33,406 bases of DNA from Bacteroidota bacterium (GTDB taxonomy: Bacteria > Bacteroidota > Bacteroidia > Chitinophagales > Chitinophagaceae), in the NCBI GenBank assembly GCA_963169885.1, contig CAUJFR010000309.1, positions 1-33,406 on the forward strand. Reading direction: 5' to 3'. The notes below the pieces were generated by a model that had not been told where the DNA came from, did not search any database, and was given only the letters and a program-made list of their open reading frames with translations. The position numbers were made by a program, and so were the translations under genes. Positions 2,498 through 10,650 of this stretch are shown piece by piece; within the stretch, counting starts at the first letter, position 1, and every line of letters begins with the position of its first letter.

Positions 2498-4381
2498 TCA
2501 ACGACTGACCACTAATACGGGAATATCCAGTTCATGTCTTACAGCATCCACCGTCTGACCATAAATAAGGTCTTTCAAACCGCTATGACCATGTGCCCCG
2601 ATGACCAGCATATCTCCCTGGTTTTCTTTCACTAACCGGGCTATTTCTTTTGCCCTGTCATTGAAACCAAGTAAACCGATAGCCGGTATTCCTTTTTCTT
2701 TCAATTGCCGGACATACTCATCCAGGTGTTCCTGGTCTTTACGGGTTTCCAGGTCATCCGCTTCTTTACCTATGATCCGGGTAGCTGCACTTTCCACCAC
2801 ATGGATCAGGATGTAGCGTGTTTTTTTGTTTCCCTGCCCTATGGCATGCAGCATCAGTTTTTGATCATTCTCGCTGAAATCCAGGGCTACAGCAATCTGG
2901 TTATACTCGGGTATCTGCTGCAGCGAAAGGGGAGTGGCCTGTGGGTGAATGCGGAGCGGGGCTGCCTGTTTTTTACTTAATAACGGATACACGACTGCCA
3001 CTACCAGTAATAAAAGATATAACAGCGCCGCAATAATAATTACGGCTTTCCATAGCAAACTGCCTGAATCGCTGAAAAAACCACTGGCCTGTTCTATCAC
3101 CATACGGATATTCAGGTATACAATTACGGCGGTGATCAGGGAAGCCAGTACAATGGTAAAGGGTTTGATGGCGAATGTGCCCATCTTTTTTTTATCACTG
3201 GTAAAATGTATCAGGGGAATGATGGCAAATCCGAGTTGCAGACTCAGGATCACCTGACTTAAAATCAGGAGACTGTCAATATTTTCTTCCCCATTGATCA
3301 ATATAACAATTACCGCCGGGATCACGGCAATAAGCCGGGTCAGGAGCCGCCGCATCCAGGGAGCAATCCGTAAATGCAAATAACCTTCCATGACAATCTG
3401 CCCCGCGAGGGTACCGGTAATTGTGGAGCTTTGTCCGGCGGCAATCAGGGCTACAGCAAATAATACCGGTGCGAGTTCACTGCCCAGCATTGGCTTCAGC
3501 AATTCATGGGCTGTCCTGATTTCTCCGACATCGGTCCGGCCGGATTCAAAGAAAACTTTTCCCGCCAGCACAAGTATGGCTGCATTGACAAAAAATGCGA
3601 GATTCAATGCGATGGCACTATCAATAAAATTCATCCGGAGGGCTCGCTTAATACCCTTTTCATCCCGCCTTATTTTACGTGTCTGTACCAGTGCGGAGTG
3701 CAGGTACAGGTTATGCGGCATTACCGTTGCGCCAATGATGCCAATGGCAATATAAAGGGCCGTATCGTTGGGTATCCGCGGTACAAATCCTTTAGCCACT
3801 TCCCGCAGATCCGGTTTGGCAAGTATGATTTCTGTAAGGAACGAAAGGCCAATGATAGCAATCAGGGCAATGATAAAAGCCTCCATTTTCCGCATGCCCA
3901 TCCGCTGTAATAACAGGAAAAGAAAAGTGTCCAGTACCGTTATCAATACACCCCAGATCAGGGGCAGTCCGGTGAGTAACTGAATACCAATAGCCATACC
4001 CAGAATTTCCGCCAGGTCGGTAGCCGCAATTGCAATCTCGGCCAGGCCGTATAATGCATAGTTGATATACCTGGGATAGGTTTCCCTGTTGGCCTGAGCC
4101 AGATCACGTCCCCTGACAATTCCCAGTCTGGCGGATAAACTCTGCAGCAGGAGGGCCATCAGGTTACTCATGAGCAGCACCCAGATCAGTTTGTAATGAA
4201 ACTGACTGCCCCCGGCCAGATCAGTAGCCCAGTTGCCCGGATCCATATACCCGACGCTAACCAGATAGGCCGGTCCGAAAAAGGCAAGCAGTTTCCTCCA
4301 CCCCTTGCCGGTAGCCTGGGTTGTATCCACGGTGCCGTGTACTTCACTCAATGACTGGTAAGGTTCCTTTTCATGCTTCAT
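2498..4381 (-). CDS. mntH: Nramp family divalent metal (Mn2+/Fe2+) transporter with C-terminal universal stress protein domain
   Basis: DPGNWATDLAGGSQF and MPHNLYLHS Nramp motifs; C-terminus QIAVALDFSENDQ...VIGAHGHSGLKDLIYGQTVDAVRHELDIPVLVV is UspA-like. Confidence 0.92.
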   Translation of the reverse strand: MKHEKEPYQSLSEVHGTVDTTQATGKGWRKLLAFFGPAYLVSVGYMDPGNWATDLAGGSQFHYKLIWVLLMSNLMALLLQSLSARLGIVRGRDLAQANRETYPRYINYALYGLAEIAIAATDLAEILGMAIGIQLLTGLPLIWGVLITVLDTFLFLLLQRMGMRKMEAFIIALIAIIGLSFLTEIILAKPDLREVAKGFVPRIPNDTALYIAIGIIGATVMPHNLYLHSALVQTRKIRRDEKGIKRALRMNFIDSAIALNLAFFVNAAILVLAGKVFFESGRTDVGEIRTAHELLKPMLGSELAPVLFAVALIAAGQSSTITGTLAGQIVMEGYLHLRIAPWMRRLLTRLIAVIPAVIVILINGEENIDSLLILSQVILSLQLGFAIIPLIHFTSDKKKMGTFAIKPFTIVLASLITAVIVYLNIRMVIEQASGFFSDSGSLLWKAVIIIAALLYLLLLVVAVVYPLLSKKQAAPLRIHPQATPLSLQQIPEYNQIAVALDFSENDQKLMLHAIGQGNKKTRYILIHVVESAATRIIGKEADDLETRKDQEHLDEYVRQLKEKGIPAIGLLGFNDRAKEIARLVKENQGDMLVIGAHGHSGLKDLIYGQTVDAVRHELDIPVLVVSR

Positions 4382-5033
4382 AGGAAATCAGAATATTTTC
4401 GGCCAGTTCACGACTGATATTTATGATGGTTTGTTTGCCAGTCCTGATTTCTAATGACTGATCAAATTCAAACCGTTTGCGCACTTCAACCACCGTACCG
4501 ATGCTGATTTTTTTATGTTTCAGTAAATCGAGTATTTCCCCCGATTGGTTACTGACACCGGACACCAGGCAGGATGTATTGAGGGGCACTTCCGGTAACC
4601 GTATTTTTTTCCCACTTTCAATTTTACCCTGGGCGTCCGGAATCGGATCCCCGTGCGGATCTTTTTTGGGAAATCCCAGGTAGGCATCCAGTTTGTCAAT
4701 GAGTTTTTTATTACTCACATGCTCCAGTTCTTCTGCTACTTCATGCACTTCATCCCAGGTGAATTTCAGTTTTTCCGCGAGGAAATACTCCCACAACCGG
4801 TGACGGCGTATAATACCAAGCGCCACTTTACTGCCATCTGTGGTCAGCCGGAATCCCTGGTAAGGCTGATAATGAAGCAGCTTTTTAGCTTTCAGTTTTT
4901 TCATCATATCCGTAACCGATGCCGGACGGGTTTTCAGTTCTCCGGCCAGTTCATTCGTGGTAACCGTCCCTTCCTTCTTCTGCAGATGAAAAATGGTTTT
5001 GATATAGTTTTCCTCACTGACTGAGTAGTTCAT
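4371..5033 (-). CDS. mntR: DtxR/MntR family metal-dependent transcriptional regulator
   Basis: SEENYIKTIFHLQKKEG N-terminal HTH, FeoA/SH3-like C-terminus; 11 bp overlap with mntH indicates an operon. Confidence 0.9.
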   Translation of the reverse strand: MNYSVSEENYIKTIFHLQKKEGTVTTNELAGELKTRPASVTDMMKKLKAKKLLHYQPYQGFRLTTDGSKVALGIIRRHRLWEYFLAEKLKFTWDEVHEVAEELEHVSNKKLIDKLDAYLGFPKKDPHGDPIPDAQGKIESGKKIRLPEVPLNTSCLVSGVSNQSGEILDLLKHKKISIGTVVEVRKRFEFDQSLEIRTGKQTIINISRELAENILISYEA

Positions 5034-5087: not shown

Positions 5088-5145
5088 TTACTGGTTGACA
5101 TTGACCGGAGAAACCACTATCTTTCCGGCTGTTATATCTGATCTT

Positions 5146-6141
5146 ATGTCCCTGATAAAATTATTCCTTCTGCTGATGGCTGGCCCTCTGCTGTTGACCG
5201 GCTGCCAGTCAAAGAAAAAACCGGTTTTATCCGGTGATGAACCGGTTGCCGTTTCAGACTTTATTGAATTCTTCCCCCCTCTTACCCTTGGTTTTCAGGC
5301 AGGGGATACAATGCTGAATAAAAAGGAAAATGATACCTTACGGATCAGTTATAAAATATTTACGCAGTTTGTACCGGATACGGTACTGACCAGGTTATTC
5401 GGAAAAGGCAATAAACCCGGTATCTGGGCAATCGGGAAAGCCGGGGTTCCGGATGGCGAAACCTATTTACTGATCAGGGCCGGAACGTCGGCAAAAAAGG
5501 GATGGGTATTACTGGCATTTGATAAAAAGGATAAATTTATTGCCGCTATTCCCGCACTGATTCCAGATAATAAAAAAGAAACCAGCCAGTCATTTGTACT
5601 GGATAAACGGTATACAATCACCAGGGCGGTTCAACGAAGGAATGCGGATGGTTCCCAAAGTGAAGGGAAAGATGTTTATGTACTCAATGAAGCCACCGGG
5701 CAGTTTATGCTCATCCTGACTGAAGCACTGGACGAGAAAATCACGGAACTGATCAATCCAATCGATACCCTCGGTCGTAAACATAAGTATGCGGCGGATT
5801 ACGGTACCGGTAAAATGAATCTCGTATCTGTCCGTGACGGAAGAAAGGCGGACCGGATCAGTTTTTTTATTCATTTTGAAAAAGATAATGGAGCCTGCAC
5901 GGGTGAACTTAAAGGCGAAGCAAAATGGACCAGTCCCGGAAAAGCCGTTTACCAGGAAGATGGAGACCCCTGTGTGCTAAATTTTTCATTCCATTCCAAT
6001 AGCGTAACACTTTCCGAAACCGGATGTGGGGCCAGGCATGGATTAAATTGTAACTTTAACGGGTCCTATGCCCGGAGAAAATACACCAAACCGGTGAAAT
6101 CAGCTGCCAAAAATACCGGGAGTAAAACAGGTAAAAAGTAA
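5146..6141 (+). CDS. Hypothetical lipoprotein with Cys-containing C-terminal module
   Basis: ORF 5095..6141; start at 5146 gives signal MSLIKLFLLLMAGPLLLTGC lipobox. Confidence 0.75.
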   Translation: MSLIKLFLLLMAGPLLLTGCQSKKKPVLSGDEPVAVSDFIEFFPPLTLGFQAGDTMLNKKENDTLRISYKIFTQFVPDTVLTRLFGKGNKPGIWAIGKAGVPDGETYLLIRAGTSAKKGWVLLAFDKKDKFIAAIPALIPDNKKETSQSFVLDKRYTITRAVQRRNADGSQSEGKDVYVLNEATGQFMLILTEALDEKITELINPIDTLGRKHKYAADYGTGKMNLVSVRDGRKADRISFFIHFEKDNGACTGELKGEAKWTSPGKAVYQEDGDPCVLNFSFHSNSVTLSETGCGARHGLNCNFNGSYARRKYTKPVKSAAKNTGSKTGKK

Positions 6142-6264: not shown

Positions 6265-7920
6265 ATGAGTTTTAATAAATATACAGTCCCTTACCCGGTC
6301 GAAGAACGTTACAGTAAAAGAGTGGCCTATTTCTCCATGGAATTTGCCACACACCAACCCCTTAAGATTTATAGCGGCGGTCTGGGCTTTCTGGCCGGTT
6401 CTCATTTAAGAAGTGCATATGAACTCCGTCAGAATTTAATCGGAGTGGGAATTCTCTGGAAATATGGTTATTACGATCAGGAACGCAACCAGGACCAGAC
6501 ACTGGATGTTTCCTGGAATGAAAAGCAATATAGTTTTCTGGAAGACACCGGCATCAAATTCCAGATCAACATACATGAACATCCGGTGTGGGTGAAAGCC
6601 CTTTACCTGAATCCGGAAACGTTTAAAACAGCTCCGCTCTTTCTGCTTTCTACCGATTTACCGGAAAACGACTATGTTTCCCAAACCATCACGCATCGGT
6701 TATATGATGCGAATGTGGCTACTAAAGTAGCCCAGTTTATCCTGCTTGGAGTTGGAGGTGCTAAATTGATTGACCTGTTGGGATTTAATCCTGAATTATA
6801 TCACCTGAACGAAGCGCATGGTATTTCTGCCGCCTTCTATCTTTATAAAAAGTACGGACACAGTATACAGGAAGTAAAAAAGCGCCTGGTATTTACCACT
6901 CACACACCGGAGGAAGCCGGCAATGAAAAGCACGATATTCATCTTTGTCATAAAATGAGTTACTTCTGCGGACTCACCATTGATGAAGTAAAGAAATTAT
7001 ACGGGAATGACAGTGATCAGTTTAATCACTCCCTGGCGGCTTTGCGTTTTGCGCACCTGGCCAATGGTGTATCCCAGCTGCATGGCCATGTATCGCGGGC
7101 TATGTGGAGCAAGTATGAGGATATTTGCCCCATCATCTCCATTACCAATGCGCAGAACTGGAGGTACTGGGCCGACAAACAACTGTACCGCTTTATGGAA
7201 GCGGGCGATGATTACGGGATGGATGACCGGAAAAAATACCTGAAGAAAAGAGCGTTTGAGATAGTGGCCGATCAGACGGGTAAAATTTTCCATCCGGATG
7301 TATTCACCATTGTTTGGGCCAGACGTTTTGCCGGATACAAACGAGCGGGACTGATCACCACCGCTGAAGAAAAGTTTGAAGAGATGATCCACAACTCAAA
7401 GTACCCGGTGCAGATCATCTGGGCCGGTAAACCTTACCCGGTGGATCATCCGGCTATCAGTGAGTTTAATCAACTGGTTCACCTGAGCAAACGTTATAAG
7501 AATGTAGCCGTACTGATCGGATATGAACTCGGATTGTCCAAGCGGCTGAAACAGGCTGCGGATGTATGGTTAAATAATCCACGGGTACCACGCGAAGCAT
7601 CCGGTACCAGCGGTATGACGGCTTCCATGAATGGTGCAGTGAACTTCTCCACCAATGACGGCTGGATCCCGGAGTTTATCAATCATGGCCATAACGGGTT
7701 TGTGGTGCCAATGGCGGATTATGATAATATGCCGGTCTACGAACAGGATCAGTATGACCTGGCAAAACTCTACGAAATTCTGCAAAATGAAATGCTGCCA
7801 CTCTATTATGAAAACTACAGTACCTGGAGACAGGTGATGAAGAACGGAATGCAGGATGTACGCTTCCAGTTTGATAGTAACCGGATGGCACATGAATATT
7901 ATGATCTCCTGTACAAATAA
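6265..7920 (+). CDS. glgP: Alpha-glucan phosphorylase-like protein (GT35-related, short form)
   Basis: Motifs YSGGLGFLAGSHLRSA, HLNEAHG, TTHTPEEAGNEKHD, WARRFAGYKRAG, PREASGTSGM. Confidence 0.88.
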   Translation: MSFNKYTVPYPVEERYSKRVAYFSMEFATHQPLKIYSGGLGFLAGSHLRSAYELRQNLIGVGILWKYGYYDQERNQDQTLDVSWNEKQYSFLEDTGIKFQINIHEHPVWVKALYLNPETFKTAPLFLLSTDLPENDYVSQTITHRLYDANVATKVAQFILLGVGGAKLIDLLGFNPELYHLNEAHGISAAFYLYKKYGHSIQEVKKRLVFTTHTPEEAGNEKHDIHLCHKMSYFCGLTIDEVKKLYGNDSDQFNHSLAALRFAHLANGVSQLHGHVSRAMWSKYEDICPIISITNAQNWRYWADKQLYRFMEAGDDYGMDDRKKYLKKRAFEIVADQTGKIFHPDVFTIVWARRFAGYKRAGLITTAEEKFEEMIHNSKYPVQIIWAGKPYPVDHPAISEFNQLVHLSKRYKNVAVLIGYELGLSKRLKQAADVWLNNPRVPREASGTSGMTASMNGAVNFSTNDGWIPEFINHGHNGFVVPMADYDNMPVYEQDQYDLAKLYEILQNEMLPLYYENYSTWRQVMKNGMQDVRFQFDSNRMAHEYYDLLYK

Positions 7921-9184: not shown

Positions 9185-9264
9185 GGAACAAAGTTAATGA
9201 TTGAGAAACGTATGCCCTTACAACAGTGAACTTCCTCAAATGTTCTTCTTATCTTGCCCAAAAC

Positions 9265-10650
9265 ATGACCATGCGCTGGTTAACGGTTGTTTCACTGCTG
9301 TTTATTTTATCCGCCTGTGAAATGCGGGAAAAAAGCAAGGAACCCAAAAATAATAAAACAATGACAGATCGGTTTAGTCCACCGGATTGGGTGCGGGGCA
9401 CCACGATTTATGAAGTAAATATCCGTCAATATACCCCGGAAGGCACATTCAATGCTTTTGCACAACACCTGCCCCGTTTAAAAGAACTGGGAGTGGAAAC
9501 ACTCTGGTTTATGCCGGTTACACCCATAGCGCAAAAGAATAAAAAGGGAAGCCTGGGCAGTTATTATGCCTGTTCGGATTATACTTCCATTAACCCGGAA
9601 TTTGGTACCATGGATGATTTTAAATCATTGGTCAGCCTGGCCCACCAGTTGGGATTTAAAGTCATACTGGACTGGGTCGCCAATCATACAGGCTGGGATC
9701 ATCACTGGACTGTGGAGCACCCGGATTATTATCTGAAAGACACCGCTACCAATGATTTCCTGAAAGCCTCGGGTATGGACGATATCATTGAGCTGGATTT
9801 CAATAACCCGGCACTGCGAAAGGAAATGACAGCTGCCATGCAATTCTGGGTAAAGGAATGTGATATTGACGGATACCGGTGCGACCTGGCCTCCTGGGTA
9901 GAACTCGATTACTGGCTGGAAGCCAGACCACAGGTGGATGCAGTTAAACCCCTATTCTGGCTGGGTGAATATGATGAACTGGAAAAGCCGGAATACGGGA
10001 AAGCATTTGATGCGAGCTACTCCTGGGGTTGGATGCACCTGACAGAGGATTTCTTTAAAAAGCAACTCCCACTGGATACGCTGACCGGACTGCTTCACCG
10101 GTATGATGCACTGGGCGATACTACCATGCGCGCCTGGTTTACCACCAATCATGACGAGAACAGCTGGAACGGTACCGAATTTGAAAAATACGGATCCATG
10201 TTCAAAGCCCTGGCCGTATTCAGTTTTACCTGGAATGGTATTCCTTTATTGTACTCCGGCCAGGAACTGGGGAATACCAAACGGATTGATTTCTTTGATA
10301 AGGATACTATCGTGGCAGGCCCGTGGGCAGCAGAACTCACTGGATTCTATCAGTCTTTAATCAAGCTCAAATCGACTCACCCGGCATTGAAGGCGGGCGA
10401 TCCTTCCGTCACCACGTACCGGCTGACTACAACCGATGACCGGCATGTACTGGCATTCTTACGGGAAAAAGGAAATCGTGAAGTATTGGTTGTACTCAAC
10501 CTGTCTGATCAAAAGGACCTTCATTTCGAGATCACCGGTACTGAAGTAACCGGCCTGTATAAAAATGCGTTCTCTGGAGCGGCCAATGATTTTACCAATG
10601 AAAAAAACTTTGAGTTGCAGGACTGGGAGTTTGCGGTGTATGAAAAGTGA
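9265..10650 (+). CDS. Alpha-amylase family (GH13) lipoprotein
   Basis: ORF 9226..10650; start at 9265 gives MTMRWLTVVSLLFILSAC lipobox; GH13 regions VILDWVANHT, DGYRCDLASWVE, FTTNHDEN. Confidence 0.9.
   Translation: MTMRWLTVVSLLFILSACEMREKSKEPKNNKTMTDRFSPPDWVRGTTIYEVNIRQYTPEGTFNAFAQHLPRLKELGVETLWFMPVTPIAQKNKKGSLGSYYACSDYTSINPEFGTMDDFKSLVSLAHQLGFKVILDWVANHTGWDHHWTVEHPDYYLKDTATNDFLKASGMDDIIELDFNNPALRKEMTAAMQFWVKECDIDGYRCDLASWVELDYWLEARPQVDAVKPLFWLGEYDELEKPEYGKAFDASYSWGWMHLTEDFFKKQLPLDTLTGLLHRYDALGDTTMRAWFTTNHDENSWNGTEFEKYGSMFKALAVFSFTWNGIPLLYSGQELGNTKRIDFFDKDTIVAGPWAAELTGFYQSLIKLKSTHPALKAGDPSVTTYRLTTTDDRHVLAFLREKGNREVLVVLNLSDQKDLHFEITGTEVTGLYKNAFSGAANDFTNEKNFELQDWEFAVYEK

Follow-up and report, generated by a model that had tools for sequence, protein, structure and literature searches.

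In textbooks, glycogen phosphorylase (GP) is recognised by the PLP that it carries on a single lysine, and why glycosyl transfer by this enzyme needs PLP is an old question. In ordinary GPs the backbone of the EASGTSG loop holds the 5'-phosphate of PLP. The catalytic group of PLP in these enzymes is this phosphate and not the aldehyde (PMC6411801), and the lysine is therefore an anchor, with which a phosphorylase may dispense if the role is otherwise filled. One review (PMC11046441) proposes that proto-GT35 was an NDP-sugar enzyme in which PLP took the place of a nucleoside monophosphate, and the GP of Methanococcus maripaludis (MmGP) is described in a further review (PMC12267944, citing PMID 40636995) as not requiring PLP. 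The GT35 protein considered here is encoded in a 33,406-nucleotide stretch of DNA from a member of the Chitinophagaceae (contig CAUJFR010000309.1, hereafter the window) and carries a threonine in place of the PLP-lysine.

A short GT35 protein with threonine at the PLP-lysine position

The gene and its PLP loop are located as follows:
6265..7920, + strand: ORF of the Thr-type GT35 / TIGR02094 'alpha-glucan family phosphorylase', 551 aa
7594..7638, + strand: PLP/phosphate loop EASGTSGMTASMNGA, placed by alignment to solved GPs
7618..7620, + strand: ACG codon of Thr452, at the PLP-lysine position (rabbit Lys680, E. coli MalP Lys646)

The ORF codes for a short GT35 protein without a full N-terminal DUF3417 domain. 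It belongs to TIGR02094 with a score of 423.9 bits (cut-off 191.7; 413-454 bits for other members) and matches Pfam PF00343 with 53.8 bits, while on the GT5 glycogen synthase profile TIGR02095 it scores 40.5 bits, below the cut-off of 328.45. The AlphaFold2 model (mean pLDDT 91.3, pTM 0.90) has the GT-B phosphorylase fold, its top Foldseek matches in the PDB all being GT35 enzymes and the best being the GP of Segatella copri (TM 0.90 by query length).

Homologs were sampled from near relatives, 396 Bacteroidota genomes, the best 80 named GTDB loci, 145 Verrucomicrobiota genomes and plasmids, and the final alignment comprises 232 proteins. In HMM alignments to solved GT35 enzymes Thr452 falls on the PLP-lysine with no gap, and the window-type loop EASGTSGMTAxMNG is aligned opposite EASGTSGEKAEMNG of the S. 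copri GP. The original prediction, that threonine occupies the PLP-lysine position, is upheld by these alignments, with 163/163 clade proteins and 0/69 others being non-lysine at 452. The residue is Thr in 135, Ser in 27 and Ala in one of the 163 non-lysine proteins among the 232, and Lys in all 69 outgroup GT35 proteins. The Lys-aldimine signature EASGT(G/S)xxK of the PLP-dependent (fold type V) GPs is thus replaced by T, S or A at its last position throughout the clade. Because Lys452 is absent, the usual PLP aldimine cannot form at this position, as had been expected should the alignment hold. Among close relatives the Thr452 codon drifts synonymously (ACG/ACT/ACA/ACC) with the residue unchanged, and this drift and the 163 homologs led to the rejection of a sequencing error or local mutation. 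Misalignment of the loop was likewise rejected, as both the HMM and MAFFT alignments are gap-free and the flanks invariant.

Extent and origin of the clade

The clade members (n=163) are 52-99% identical to the window protein, compared to at most 37-38% for proteins outside the clade. They occur in Bacteroidota, Verrucomicrobiota, Campylobacterota and one Halopseudomonas, the holder H. formosensis being an isolate, and the substitution is clade-wide, as first surmised, but more widespread than the close Bacteroidota homologs that were then thought perhaps to share it. Apparent spread into 'Sphingomonadales' and 'Beijerinckiaceae' MAGs (L111, L114, L121) was not counted; these are probably mislabelled, because their sequences group with Chitinophagaceae (L121 in the tree).

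Maximum-likelihood analysis of 104 rows recovers the non-lysine proteins as monophyletic (SH-aLRT 98), with one change at position 452, on a clade stem branch of 1.19 changes per site. Loss of the lysine from a Lys-bearing ancestor is the simplest reading of this tree, taken with a provisional root, because all other TIGR02094 proteins and a canonical GP keep the lysine. The clade is under strong purifying selection, dN/dS against close relatives being 0.017-0.04 where synonymous sites are unsaturated.

Two copies of the clade protein are found in some genomes (L013 in G032, L057 in G357, L059 in G156, and also G448 and G246). The second, divergent copy may carry Ala or Ser at 452, L013 being the sole protein with Ala. 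Within the genus of the window genome, the phosphorylase gene of one genome contains an in-frame TAG (G010:C4:19263-20912, L017), and a further genome of 1.8 Mb (G003) is without both the phosphorylase gene and the glycogen synthesis genes.

Residues kept and residues changed

Three conserved features are located as follows:
6373..6387, + strand: Gly-rich loop SGGLG (rabbit Gly134-Gly135), invariant or nearly so
6901..6903, + strand: His213 (rabbit His377, glucosyl site), invariant or nearly so
7315..7344, + strand: WARRFAGYKR phosphate-binding segment, invariant in 232/232

The retention of the WARRFAGYKR segment, also noted at the outset, extends to every aligned protein, and Arg354, Lys359 and Arg360 (rabbit Arg569, Lys574 and Arg575) are invariant in 232/232. 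Asn295 and Tyr358 (rabbit Asn484 and Tyr573) are invariant or nearly so across the alignment, and the stretch from Glu444 (rabbit Glu672) to Gly450 is kept in practically all 232 homologs. The window protein thus has the GT35 catalytic and phosphate residues R354, K359, E444, Y358, H213 and N295.

The changed positions include a candidate replacement lysine:
7537..7539, + strand: Ser425, sharing a helix face with Lys429
7549..7551, + strand: AAA codon of Lys429, present in 163/163 clade proteins and in 0/69 Lys452 proteins

Six clade-invariant positions are never seen outside the clade in the 232-protein alignment, namely Ser46 (Asp outside), Gln56 (Leu/Ile), Gln297 (Val/Ile), Val350 (Gly), Pro390 (Ala) and Lys429 (Val/Thr/Ile), which is the one lysine of the set. 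Lys429 sits in helix 422-431 of the AlphaFold2 model, one helix from 452, and in each of the 232 proteins a lysine occupies either 429 or 452, never both. Residue 425 is Ser in 163/163 clade proteins and Gly or Ala in 67/69 Lys452 proteins. By alignment, 425 and 429 correspond to rabbit Ala653 and Ile657. Ile657 lies one helical turn beyond Ala653 and two beyond Val650, both of which line the PLP pocket in GP structures. The pairing of lysines at 429 and 452 is suggestive but not statistically independent, counting as one event and not many because the gain of Lys429 falls on a single long stem branch, which it shares with five other perfectly segregating positions.

The main rival to a PLP-free enzyme, both PLP independence and another lysine having been raised with the original prediction, is a displaced lysine, whereby a PLP-dependent glucan phosphorylase would form its aldimine on Lys429 of the neighbouring helix. 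The strict alternation of the two lysines, the singling out of Lys429 among the clade-specific positions, its proximity to the pocket residues Ala653 and Val650 and the retained PLP-phosphate loop are consistent with such a swap. The residues at 425 (Gly/Ala to Ser) and 350 (Gly to Val) are, however, bulkier, and a GP operating without PLP has, according to the review on MmGP, already been reported; a displaced lysine is considered rather unlikely. Alternatively, PLP may be bound tightly yet non-covalently in an active phosphorylase, with Thr/Ser452 making room for the aldehyde or hydrogen-bonding to it. Binding of the 5'-phosphate, the catalytic group of PLP in ordinary GPs (PMC6411801), could still be provided by the kept EASGTSG loop and the basic residues, but this explanation leaves the invariant Lys429 and the pocket substitutions unaccounted for and is judged very unlikely.

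Genome content

In 52/53 Bacteroidota holders PF00343 matches no protein but that of the clade; the exception (G036) also has a canonical GP. The clade protein is likewise the sole GT35 in 19/19 further genomes, drawn from named Bacteroidota and from other phyla, if second clade copies are set aside; in these 19 the second copies were judged by length and a weak PF00343 score and not read in every case. A backup by a canonical GP encoded elsewhere was rejected on these counts. No genome with both a Thr-type and a Lys-type protein was found among the 396 Bacteroidota and 145 Verrucomicrobiota at the thresholds applied, a pattern suggestive of functional replacement.

A glycogen synthase is encoded in 29/32 holders tested (24 full GT5, five GT3), GlgB scores above the cut-off in 29/32 and GlgC is present in most. 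Neither glycogen synthase nor GlgB is found in G021 and G133, while G174 contains GlgB and GlgC without a full glycogen synthase. Most Bacteroidota genomes tested also encode a conserved protein of 260-320 aa (G000:C173:649-1314, for example) whose match to GlgA (GT5) is confined to the N-terminal half and which accompanies or replaces the full GlgA. A fragment of this kind, corresponding to the GlgA N-terminal half, is noted in PMC11046441, where it is assigned no function.

A catalytically dead or regulatory homolog is very unlikely. The residue lost counts as indispensable in every textbook GP, which is what a pseudoenzyme might show, but the other catalytic residues are invariant, the protein is the sole GT35, the gene context is metabolic and purifying selection is strong. 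The suggestion of a regulatory homolog, raised with the original prediction, is therefore improbable in view of the invariant catalytic residues of a protein that is almost always the sole GT35 of its genome.

Gene neighbourhoods

Two further window genes provide the local context of the phosphorylase gene:
5095..6141, + strand: predicted lipoprotein without a Pfam match, a conserved upstream gene with homologs in 23 examined loci
9226..10650, + strand: GH13 alpha-amylase-family protein with a lipoprotein-like signal (PF00128, 1.7e-40), with homologs in 19 loci

The GH13 gene is an alpha-glucan context near the phosphorylase gene. Homologs of the 5095-6141 gene lie directly upstream of the phosphorylase gene in the loci where gene order was seen. 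A common regulon or operon in Bacteroidota was rejected, the neighbourhood being little conserved beyond the family level. The window also encodes an NRAMP metal transporter that carries a fused universal-stress-protein domain (2498-4381, - strand), adjoined by a DtxR-like repressor with a FeoA domain (4371-5033, - strand).

In Campylobacterota the Thr-type gene (T) forms the clusters GlgA-GlgB-T (L175), GlgB-Pgm-T (L178), Pgm-T-Pta (L173), GAPDH-T-PGK (L182) and, with a GlgB-like GH13 protein, GlgB-like-PGI-T (L166). In G457 and G459 two glgA genes lie close to it. A Bacteroidota locus has the order AckA-phosphoketolase-T plus a USP-like gene (L103). Lys-type short GPs adjoin phosphoketolase too, and DUF1622 neighbours one Lys-type and one Thr-type gene. 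Thr-type plasmid genes are named glgP, alpha-glucan family phosphorylase, by NCBI. Further neighbours are a pyridoxamine-5'-phosphate-oxidase-family gene about 30 bases downstream of the Thr-type glgP on a Runella rosea plasmid (L278:10660-11097) and, in Campylobacterota, a fusion of a nucleotidyltransferase with a phosphoglucomutase/phosphomannomutase-type domain, encoded beside or near the Thr-type gene (L169:5814-8333, L176:6936-9440).

These neighbourhoods bear on a possible reversion to an NDP-sugar glycosyltransferase, in which a nucleotide would occupy the old PLP site and glucose would be drawn from ADP- or UDP-glucose. Position 452 corresponds to the second Glu of the GT4/GT3 EX7E motif, which contacts the nucleotide ribose. 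Together with the proposed replacement of a nucleoside monophosphate by PLP in proto-GT35 (PMC11046441), this correspondence would fit a reversion. The genomes, however, already contain a GT5 or GT3 glycogen synthase, with glgA beside the gene in Campylobacterota, and the neighbourhood is catabolic. Clade proteins score 33-41 bits against GlgA or are unlisted, compared to 40.8 for the Lys-type L070, and are thus no closer to it; drift towards GlgA was not seen in the profile scores. Reversion is accordingly weaker than PLP on Lys429 and decidedly unlikely, and the finding of bona fide glycogen synthases in the same genomes and gene clusters speaks against the transferase-type homolog suggested earlier.

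Proposed function

The clade protein is probably a working glucan phosphorylase, as far as sequence and context allow. Phosphorolysis of alpha-glucans is favoured because the glucosyl and phosphate sites are retained, the gene is the sole copy, glycogen synthases are encoded in the same genomes and the context is catabolic. The reaction would be the conversion of alpha-1,4-glucan to glucose-1-phosphate (EC 2.4.1.1), as inferred from gene context and co-occurrence, and the product would pass through phosphoglucomutase to glycolysis or a phosphoketolase route. The reading preferred here, if only tentatively, is that of a working alpha-1,4-glucan phosphorylase that is PLP-free and represents a distinct GT35 subfamily, the PLP-lysine having been lost once in its ancestor.

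A PLP-free enzyme with Lys429 in the vacated site is favoured because the lysine is an anchor, MmGP is PLP-free by the account in PMC12267944, and PLP has been proposed to be a later entry into the fold (PMC11046441). The glucosyl site (His213, Asn295, Tyr358, Glu444 and the Ala445-Ser446-Gly447 backbone) is retained, as are both phosphate-binding elements, Arg354/Lys359 and the EASGTSG loop. The old PLP pocket would be remodelled by the changes of Lys452 to Thr/Ser, Gly/Ala425 to Ser and Gly350 to Val, and Lys429 with Arg354/Lys359 may supply the positive charge and hydrogen bonding otherwise given by PLP and its 5'-phosphate. Both the PLP independence and this role of Lys429 are predicted from sequence. 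Several observations count against the PLP-free phosphorylase: strict EASGTSG conservation may point to continued binding of PLP or a different phosphate ligand, the pyridoxamine-phosphate-oxidase-family gene directly follows the Thr-type glgP on the Runella plasmid, three holders (G021, G133, G174) are without a recognised glycogen synthase, and the gain of Lys429 and loss of Lys452 fall on a single stem branch. The literature yielded no activity, PLP or structural measurement for any clade member.

Comparison with known systems

On balance, we are inclined to regard these proteins as a GT35 clade of bacteria, widespread and of single origin, that traded its PLP-lysine for one on a different helix. 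The outcome would be either a PLP enzyme with a swapped lysine or a phosphorylase free of PLP, in which the entry of PLP into the GT-B fold was reversed. Chryseobacterium, Hymenobacter, Akkermansia relatives and Sulfurovum are examples of organisms that would have it as their only GP. The clade was previously lumped in with GP relatives and annotated simply as glgP, and for many bacteria automated annotation as 'alpha-glucan phosphorylase' or as a PLP enzyme may be mistaken on a defining point. A natural clade in three phyla and one gammaproteobacterium that is without only that lysine makes the PLP question testable by ordinary enzymology. No paper on a GT35 clade lacking its lysine was found in the searchable literature; the original MmGP paper, outside that scope, may touch on it.

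MmGP, an archaeal GP, is likened to the clade by its reported PLP independence, as given in the review. The GT5/GT3/GT4 retaining glycosyltransferases (GlgA etc.) share the GT-B fold, an equivalent Arg/Lys/Glu constellation and the absence of PLP, but use NDP-sugars, and the clade scores to GlgA are only about 33-41 bits. Classical GP and MalP (TIGR02093; rabbit GP, E. coli MalP) have the same family and catalytic core, but carry PLP on Lys680/Lys646 and are about 800-850 aa long, and the window protein matches TIGR02093 weakly (42 bits, cut-off 552.9). The Lys-type TIGR02094 proteins (S. copri GP, PDB 9l6i; the short L070 and L214) resemble the clade in fold, glucosyl site, Arg/Lys phosphate ligands and EASGTSG loop and share phosphoketolase and DUF1622 as gene neighbours. 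The clade differs from them in the change of Lys452 to Thr/Ser, the gain of Lys429, an identity of at most 37-38% to the nearest and its own monophyletic group. GT35 as a family and the concept of PLP-free GPs are already known, while a broad lysine-less bacterial clade with a new invariant lysine appears to be new, as far as the literature is searchable.
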